Below, piece by piece: positions 1-1,081 of a stretch of 39,786 nt of DNA. Source of the DNA: Patescibacteria group bacterium (GTDB lineage Bacteria > Patescibacteriota > Minisyncoccia > Phycocordibacterales > Phycocordibacteraceae); assembly GCA_004322365.1 (NCBI GenBank), contig SCTS01000007.1, forward strand, positions 82,266 to 122,051, in the 5' to 3' direction. Every line of letters starts with the position of its first letter. The stretch's first letter is position 1. A program made the position numbers and the translations under genes. A model generated the notes under the pieces. The model did not search any database. It was not told the origin of the DNA and saw only the letters and a program-made list of their open reading frames with translations.

Positions 1-537
1 TTTTTCCAGAAAACGTGAATACTGTTCAAACGCGTGATCTTCAAAAAGATAATTGAGCTCTAGTGAACTCTTTGGACTAAAAATATATAGACAATATGCC
101 GCCCAAAAATAGAAAAAGGCAAAGAGCATGGGAATGGTTGTGTGCACAAACATGTTGGACTTCTGCTCAGCCTTGGCAAGTGCCGAAATTACTACAACAT
201 GCATCGTTTCATTGTCTGCTGCCAAGCGAGAAAATTGTGAGAGATTTGCAAGGCGTATAGCCTTATTCTCATTTTGATAAAACATGGTGAGCAAGGTAAA
301 TGCGGCAGAATCCCACGAATGATACGGAACGCGAGCAATCACTTCCACCGCCCTGAACTTTAAATACGAAGGCTCTTTCCCATATACAGTATTTCCACAC
401 CAAACGAGTATGCGCCCAAGAATGCGCGGGAGTAGGTGGGGTTTGTAACTATCGTGTGGTTTTTTATATTCTTCGAGAACGACAGAATCATTGAGCGACT
501 GGTTTAATGCTTCCATTTCCAAATCAACCTGTTCCAT
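1..537 (-). CDS. Alternative oxidase (AOX)-like di-iron membrane protein, C-terminus truncated by window edge
   Basis: Manual translation of the minus strand from ATG at 537: MEQVDLEMEALNQ...FRAVEVIARVPYH...SRLAADNETMHVVVIS...YIFSPKSSLELNYLFEDHAFEQYSRFLEK. Matches the AOX layout LETxAxVP / NERMH / LEEEAxxxY in order and spacing. Absent from the ORF track because it runs off the edge. Confidence 0.75.
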   Translation of the reverse strand, partial: MEQVDLEMEALNQSLNDSVVLEEYKKPHDSYKPHLLPRILGRILVWCGNTVYGKEPSYLKFRAVEVIARVPYHSWDSAAFTLLTMFYQNENKAIRLANLSQFSRLAADNETMHVVVISALAKAEQKSNMFVHTTIPMLFAFFYFWAAYCLYIFSPKSSLELNYLFEDHAFEQYSRFLEK

Positions 538-619: not shown

Positions 620-1081
620 ATGGAAAATAAAGTACTCGTGAGCTGGCAAGCGCGGGAATATGAATTCCGGCCTAAAGAACGGCAGTGGTATTGGACGGTT
701 GGTATCGTCGCTGTTGGTGTTGCAATAGCATCATTTATTTTGAGTGATTATTTGTTTTCTCTCATCGCTCTCATTGGTGGCTTTACTGTTATACTCATCG
801 GATCAAGAAAACCCCCGCGACACAAGTATAGTTTGACGGAACGGGGATTTTTAGTTGGTGCCCATCTCATTCCCTATGATCATATAAAGCGCTTCTCTAT
901 ACATGAAGATGAACCAAGAAGGTTGAGTATTGAAACAAAGCGTCTCACAGGAACCATTAGTGCCCCTCTTGGAGACACAGACCACCGACTCATCCGTACA
1001 GAGCTAAAGAACAGAAATATTGAAGAGGTGGAAGCGCTCGACTCATTCATTGACGGTCTATCGAGAGGAATGGGGCTCTAA
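620..1081 (+). CDS. Small membrane protein with two N-terminal TM segments and a PH-like/DUF C-terminal region
   Basis: ORF; hydrophobic hairpin WTVGIVAVGVAIASFILSDYLFSLIALIGGFTVILIG followed by a soluble domain. Confidence 0.6.
   Translation: MENKVLVSWQAREYEFRPKERQWYWTVGIVAVGVAIASFILSDYLFSLIALIGGFTVILIGSRKPPRHKYSLTERGFLVGAHLIPYDHIKRFSIHEDEPRRLSIETKRLTGTISAPLGDTDHRLIRTELKNRNIEEVEALDSFIDGLSRGMGL

Follow-up and report, generated by a model that had tools for sequence, protein, structure and literature searches.

A divergent clade of alternative oxidases in Patescibacteria with a complete di-iron site

The window analyzed here, a stretch of 39,786 nucleotides (G000:C6:82266-122051), begins inside a gene whose product, AOX-B, is well supported as a member of the alternative oxidase (AOX) family with a complete di-iron site. 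AOX, an enzyme of plants and fungi, transfers electrons from quinols to oxygen, and most CPR bacteria are held to be fermenters without respiratory chains. AOX-B is not the oddity of a single genome, as it represents a lineage, hereafter clade B, that recurs in at least 70 loci. The explanation that we favor, with moderate confidence, is that AOX-B acts as a non-pumping quinol:O2 oxidoreductase on quinol that the cell does not make itself, mainly for the removal of O2 and the reoxidation of a flavin dehydrogenase.

The AOX-B Gene and Its Family

The minus-strand ORF at 1-537 is present as an earlier sequence-only reading had described it, with the motifs VEVIARVP, NETMH, and FEDHAFEQY all found in that order. 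The contig continues to the left of the window, and the ORF extends 165 bases beyond the edge on that same contig. The complete ORF with its stop codon (L002:10102-10803, minus strand, ATG start) encodes a protein of 233 aa (P0002). An in-frame TTG lies upstream of the start, at window position 561, but most relatives start with an ATG at about the place of the one at 537. The genome, G000, amounts to 787 kb in 8 contigs and is scored as 100% complete and 0.43% contaminated. Its nearest relatives are Ca. Kaiserbacteria and Parcubacteria, in agreement with the earlier description of a CPR-type chromosome, and the window is Kaiserbacteria-like. The features of the gene are as follows.

1..537, minus strand: first 179 of the 233 codons of the AOX-B gene (ATG at 537; Pfam AOX)
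G000:C6:82101-82265 (L002:10102-10266), outside the window, minus strand: remaining 54 codons and stop of the AOX-B gene
358..360, minus strand: Lys60, aligned with Arg118 of trypanosome AOX (TAO), a basic residue in the quinol site; Lys in 28 of 28 clade-B rows, an invariant column
343..345, minus strand: Glu65, metal ligand (TAO Glu123 by alignment), in VEVIARVPYHSW; invariant in 64 relatives
199..213, minus strand: Asn109-Glu110-Thr-Met-His113, with the second and third ligands (TAO Asn161, Glu162, His165)
79..135, minus strand: hydrophobic helix IPMLFAFFYFWAAYCLYIF, residues 135-153; hydropathy 1.79 over 19 residues
19..42, minus strand: Glu166 (fourth ligand), His168 (PTOX-type, TAO Glu215), Ala169, and Tyr173 (catalytic Tyr220)

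Completion of the ORF on its own contig, beyond the left window edge, allowed the C-terminus to be read. The C-terminal region (...RNDEIIHRNKSIEE...) includes RSVRNDEIIHRN, the R-x-D-E-x-x-H that is absent from the truncated ORF, and the protein ends with ...NQYDFFRSVRNDEIIHRNKSIEEIEKLGARG, its last helix bearing this motif. The fourth-helix D-E-x-x-H is therefore present.

Against a curated cut-off of 22.7 bits, the Pfam AOX model (PF01786) matches residues 60-220 of the whole protein with 45.5 bits (E=9e-12) and meets no competing family; the truncated 179 aa reach 29.7 bits (E=6.5e-7), also with no other family. A search of NCBIfam with the window protein returned no matching model, and a sequence search of the PDB with the protein or a profile gave no usable match. 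Structure was approached through a homologue, L036, which is 81% identical to the window protein and whose AlphaFold model has a mean pLDDT of 91.5 and a pTM of 0.89. When this model was compared with the PDB by Foldseek, the first 14 matches were all trypanosome AOX (prob 1.00, TM 0.63-0.70, E from 4.5e-4 to 1.5e-2), followed by a clear fall to COQ7 and ferritins (prob at most 0.85). The demethoxyubiquinone hydroxylase COQ7 has a di-iron helical bundle and quinone chemistry in common with AOX, but its fold match is much weaker (prob 0.85, TM 0.37) and it shows no sequence match. Neither a lack of the fourth-helix ExxH ligands nor a better-scoring unrelated family, the two results named beforehand as arguing against an AOX, was thus encountered, because the C-terminus has R-x-D-E-x-x-H and Pfam gives AOX only. 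The fold and the di-iron site are well supported, and AOX-B likely works as a quinol oxidase.

Di-Iron Site and Membrane Features

The six di-iron ligands Glu65, Glu110, His113, Glu166, Glu215, and His218 are spread over four helices in the order E, ExxH, E, ExxH. Together with Asn109, Ala169, Tyr173, and Asp214, they are invariant in 64 relatives drawn from species genomes, which are 44-68% identical to L036. In an alignment with TAO that took in 28 clade-B rows, the ligands correspond to Glu123, Glu162, His165, Glu213, Glu266, and His269, respectively, and the four other residues to Asn161, Ala216, Tyr220, and Asp265. The canonical motifs LET, NERMH, and LEEEA are replaced by VEV, NETMH, and FEDHA in AOX-B, and only RxDExxH agrees. 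The substitution of the RMH Arg and of parts of the third motif, which had been noticed earlier, is real but does not amount to a defect: cyanobacterial and phage PTOX-type oxidases share it, being without the RMH Arg and having His at the place of mitochondrial AOX Glu215. Among the residues of the TAO quinol cavity, Arg118 is changed to Lys, Leu122 to Val or Ile, and Thr219 to Gln in clade B.

The hydrophobic helix at residues 135-153, whose place is covered by helix 129-153 in the L036 model, is likely the membrane-facing helix of a monotopic AOX. Five of the 64 clade-B relatives (L042, L045, L049, L060, and L066) have an added C-terminal hydrophobic helix that resembles a tail anchor.

Phylogenetic Position

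In a maximum-likelihood tree of 53 sequences, clade B forms a single group (100/99), a long-stemmed clade of its own that bears out the earlier suggestion of a divergent subfamily. A split with the same support (100/99) places clade B, cyanobacterial AOX, cyanophage PTOX, and family f32 on one side, and mitochondrial and proteobacterial AOX with the canonical AOX of Patescibacteria on the other. Clade B has a very long stem (3.35 changes per column, with a long-branch warning from the program), so that the exact sister group could be misplaced; a position of clade B on the PTOX side is likely. Apart from the tree, clade B, cyanobacterial, and phage proteins share Phe119 and His215, and Tyr at 247 is common to clade B and the cyanobacterial proteins (TAO numbering). 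The best matches beyond Patescibacteria in the collections searched are cyanobacterial or PTOX-type (Nostoc, 27.6% identity, E=2e-15).

PTOX is a plastoquinol:O2 oxidoreductase, and an insert before the last helix is its hallmark. Clade B resembles the cyanobacterial/PTOX proteins (Nostoc plasmid AOX, cyanophage ptoX) in the IARVPY region, in His215, Phe119, and Tyr247, and in D-E-x-x-H. It differs from them in that identity is 25-29%, the VEVIARVPYHSW and DNETMH signatures are its own, it has a six-residue insert before NExxH, Lys at 118, and Gln at 219, and its hosts are not photosynthetic. The cyanobacterial insert before the last helix is absent from clade B in the alignment, which is why we class clade B as a relative of PTOX and not as PTOX. 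With the mitochondrial and proteobacterial enzymes (trypanosome, Azospirillum) clade B shares the fold, the six ligands, Tyr220, Asn161, Asp265, and Ala216, whereas LETVAAVP, ENERMH, and LEEEA are altered and identity in the structural alignment is about 15%.

Distribution in Patescibacteria

The count of at least 70 clade-B loci was obtained by searching 84,980 species genomes for exact short peptide patterns from the clade-B alignment, and for this reason is a lower bound from which absence elsewhere is not provable. All loci with informative titles belong to Patescibacteria, several others being titled only "bacterium," and the groups represented are Kaiser-, Nomura-, Adler-, Yonath-, Moranii-, Wolfe-, and Giovannonibacteria as well as unnamed Parcubacteria/Paceibacterota. 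PF01786 exceeds its cut-off in 3 of 380 genomes sampled from the phylum, G000 among them, and in 29 of 397 genomes of the order. Within the order, clade B occurs in 19 genomes, with about 33-50 bits, and canonical AOX in eight, with 212-258 bits. Routine annotation may miss clade B because of these low Pfam scores and because the window protein has no NCBIfam model.

The canonical, proteobacterial-type proteins (L007-L014, from G471, G447, and family f157) include one, L008, that is 57% identical to Azospirillum AOX, and they apparently represent a separate acquisition. A PTOX-like form is found in two genomes of another family, f32 (L003, L004). At least three separate AOX-family forms within Patescibacteria are implied. 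Two further proteins of about 122 bits (L015 and L016, from G506 and G545 of family f217) have Thr in place of the helix-4 Glu and are decayed or repurposed forms; in one of them the last His is also replaced by Asn. A protein annotated as alternative oxidase on plasmid pTAD1 of Chelatococcus daeguensis (L187) has two of the six iron ligands replaced, with Gln at 162 and Ala at 213 (TAO numbering).

Relation to Known Oxygen Use

Patescibacteria are abundant in oxic groundwater and lakes although most of them have no respiratory chain, and their way of dealing with O2 is still being worked out (PMC12577380, PMC8672522). A minority of them is reported to have cytochrome o and bd quinol oxidases, and in a few CPR such terminal oxidases, of types other than AOX, have been interpreted as O2 scavengers (PMC9166423, PMC9938205, PMC5220378). 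The role proposed for these enzymes, O2 scavenging without a full chain, is the one proposed here for AOX-B, but the proteins are unrelated. A 2025 groundwater study of oxic adaptations, Kaiserbacteria included, named cytochrome o and several oxygenases, and "AOX" has no occurrence in its main text (PMC12577380). Judging by titles and counts, none of the open-access papers searched ties alternative oxidase to Patescibacteria, CPR, or Parcubacteria in a relevant way. As far as checked, clade B is a complete AOX subfamily that is new as a variant, a novelty that is provisional because the search covered open-access papers. A single-subunit, heme-free oxidase so widely encountered would be a simple, testable answer to the handling of O2, and it directs attention to the source of its quinol.

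Gene Neighborhood and Electron Supply

Within the window, the neighbor of AOX-B is a divergently transcribed DUF5673-type membrane gene (620-1081, plus strand). Beyond the left edge lie EamA-like transporter, riboflavin-kinase-like, and aldo/keto-reductase-like genes, the first and last of these being named by eye only. Neighbors of AOX-B are common to the independently assembled L036, L040, and L048, and AOX-B is therefore no assembly artefact. A gene neighborhood universal to clade-B loci was rejected, as none is common to all.

The one neighbor that is informative about metabolism is a FAD dehydrogenase (PF01565+PF02913). Seven loci have it close to AOX-B and in the same orientation; it precedes AOX-B by about 20 bases in L075, L081, and L086 and follows it in L073, and the adjacency perhaps reflects two events. 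The best NCBIfam likeness of the dehydrogenase is to the D-2-hydroxyglutarate dehydrogenase YdiJ and to GlcD, all under the equivalog cut-offs. In G000, the FAD (GlcD-type) dehydrogenase (about C7:10944-12641) is unlinked to AOX-B. By Fisher tests that ignore relatedness, the dehydrogenase is found in 27 of 29 AOX genomes versus 172 of the 368 others of the order (p=4e-7), and in 18 of 19 for clade B alone versus the same 172 of 368 AOX-free genomes (p=2e-5). It is near-universal in families f1 and f5 with or without AOX, so that the association is a lead and not a proof, and we regard the link between flavin dehydrogenase and AOX-B as weak.

Neither COX1 nor cytochrome bd was detected in the 29 AOX-bearing genomes (controls positive in 8 and 10 of 14, respectively). 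UbiA exceeded its cut-off in two of these genomes, G726 and G736 (controls 14 of 14), and both matches were rejected as quinone enzymes, their best NCBIfam likeness being to a carotenoid-type prenyltransferase and a decaprenyl-phosphate phosphoribosyltransferase. Because both resemble other enzymes, a quinone prenyltransferase was found in none of the 29 genomes, G000 included, in a search that covered UbiA among the genes of quinone synthesis. The sequence-only reading had suggested that the protein scavenges oxygen or depends on a host for its quinol, a possibility that fits the lack of a quinone-type UbiA and of another terminal oxidase. Since no quinone source was found, the substrate of AOX-B is uncertain.

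Other candidate donors were considered. G000 yielded no dedicated quinone reductase (NDH-2, complex I), and NDH-2 was rejected as donor, the recurrent second Pyr_redox_2 match being a HI0933/BaiN-type flavoprotein (TIGR00275). An NqrB-reductase fusion accompanied by FMN-binding and ApbE genes was rejected as a universal partner, as it is full length in only 6 of the 19 clade-B genomes (G431, G442, G653, G736, G741, and G757), and the fusion is absent from G000. A divergent dihydroorotate dehydrogenase (PyrD), under all class cut-offs, is present in G000 and G692. The G000 gene (L196:1462-2577, contig C5) adjoins pyrB and pyrE, and its product, which resembles class 1 and quinone-type models to about the same degree, is perhaps a second candidate donor.

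Proposed Function and Alternatives

AOX-B would be a membrane-bound di-iron oxidase of a Patescibacteria clade grouped with cyanobacterial/PTOX-type oxidases. Its two irons are predicted to be held by Glu65, Glu110, His113, Glu166, Glu215, and His218, and the hydroquinone would sit near Lys60, Ala169, and Tyr173 at the membrane face. Tyr173 would join in O-O cleavage, O2 being reduced to water with no pumping of protons. As quinone synthesis was not detected, the quinol is probably borrowed, the pool probably coming from neighboring cells. The electrons would most likely be delivered by the flavin dehydrogenase (GlcD/D-lactate type) and, in G000 and its genus, perhaps also by the divergent PyrD. 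The gain would lie in O2 removal and reoxidized flavins, our best guess for the physiological role, and not in energy capture. On this view, bacteria with AOX-B would dispose of oxygen by means of electron carriers that they borrow. More tentatively, clade B could be an old, Patescibacteria-specific oxidase that operates without quinone of the cell's own making, using quinols from the membranes of host or neighboring cells, or a flavoprotein directly, and that lets fermenters consume O2 with one enzyme.

The same lack of a quinone prenyltransferase in the 29 AOX genomes can be read as pointing to an AOX-fold oxidase that does without membrane quinols, being reduced directly by a flavoprotein such as the adjacent GlcD-type dehydrogenase or oxidizing another phenolic or lipid substrate. 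The changed residues of the quinol cavity and the operon-like pairs of AOX-B and flavin dehydrogenase favor such a reading, but the cavity changes are mostly conservative or common to PTOX-type proteins, the hydrophobic helix and the tail-anchor-like ends suggest a membrane, and every AOX/PTOX characterized to our knowledge uses quinols; we consider it unlikely, while giving it some weight. A minimal internal chain from dehydrogenase through quinone to AOX, chiefly for dumping electrons of lactate, NADH, or dihydroorotate instead of removing O2, would account for the excess of GlcD/D-lactate-type dehydrogenases in clade-B genomes, for the NqrB-reductase fusions that some of them carry together with FMN-binding and ApbE genes, and for the divergent PyrD next to pyrB and pyrE in G000. 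Nevertheless, phylogeny confounds the co-occurrence, no one donor occurs throughout, and no quinone synthesis was found, making this chain improbable.

Two further explanations were considered. Non-catalytic, decayed forms seem to exist in the order, as illustrated by L015 and L016 without the helix-4 Glu, and the Pfam score of AOX-B is low compared with typical AOX; yet the invariance of the ligands in 64 diverse relatives and the intact ORFs in many lineages make a relic very improbable. Contamination of the G000 assembly, or a very recent foreign gene transfer into it, has a precedent in the AOX gene of a presumed anaerobe, one alphaproteobacterium, that was earlier attributed to contamination (PMC6431628). 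With the same gene and shared neighbors in the independently assembled L036, L040, and L048, and with clade B monophyletic, this explanation is hardly credible for AOX-B.

Other Redox Genes in AOX-Bearing Genomes

In G741 (L163:8656-13611) and G431 (L164), an NqrB/RnfD-like membrane domain is fused to a flavin reductase and accompanied by FMN-binding, ApbE, and GlcD-type dehydrogenase genes. Dozens of the order's genomes contain long matches to the fusion, and the cluster is possibly an NADH-driven membrane electron-transfer module in Paceibacteria. In G718, a genome with canonical AOX, a gene (L165:6673-7926) scores above the NCBIfam cut-off for type III sulfide:quinone reductase, selenoprotein subtype, and a pairing of sulfide, quinone, and AOX in a Patescibacterium is possible. 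Finally, PTOX serves carotenoid desaturation in plants. In the clade-B genome G736, a CrtI-family phytoene desaturase gene adjoins a UbiA-type prenyltransferase gene (L169:5498-7860), suggesting that this bacterium makes carotenoids.
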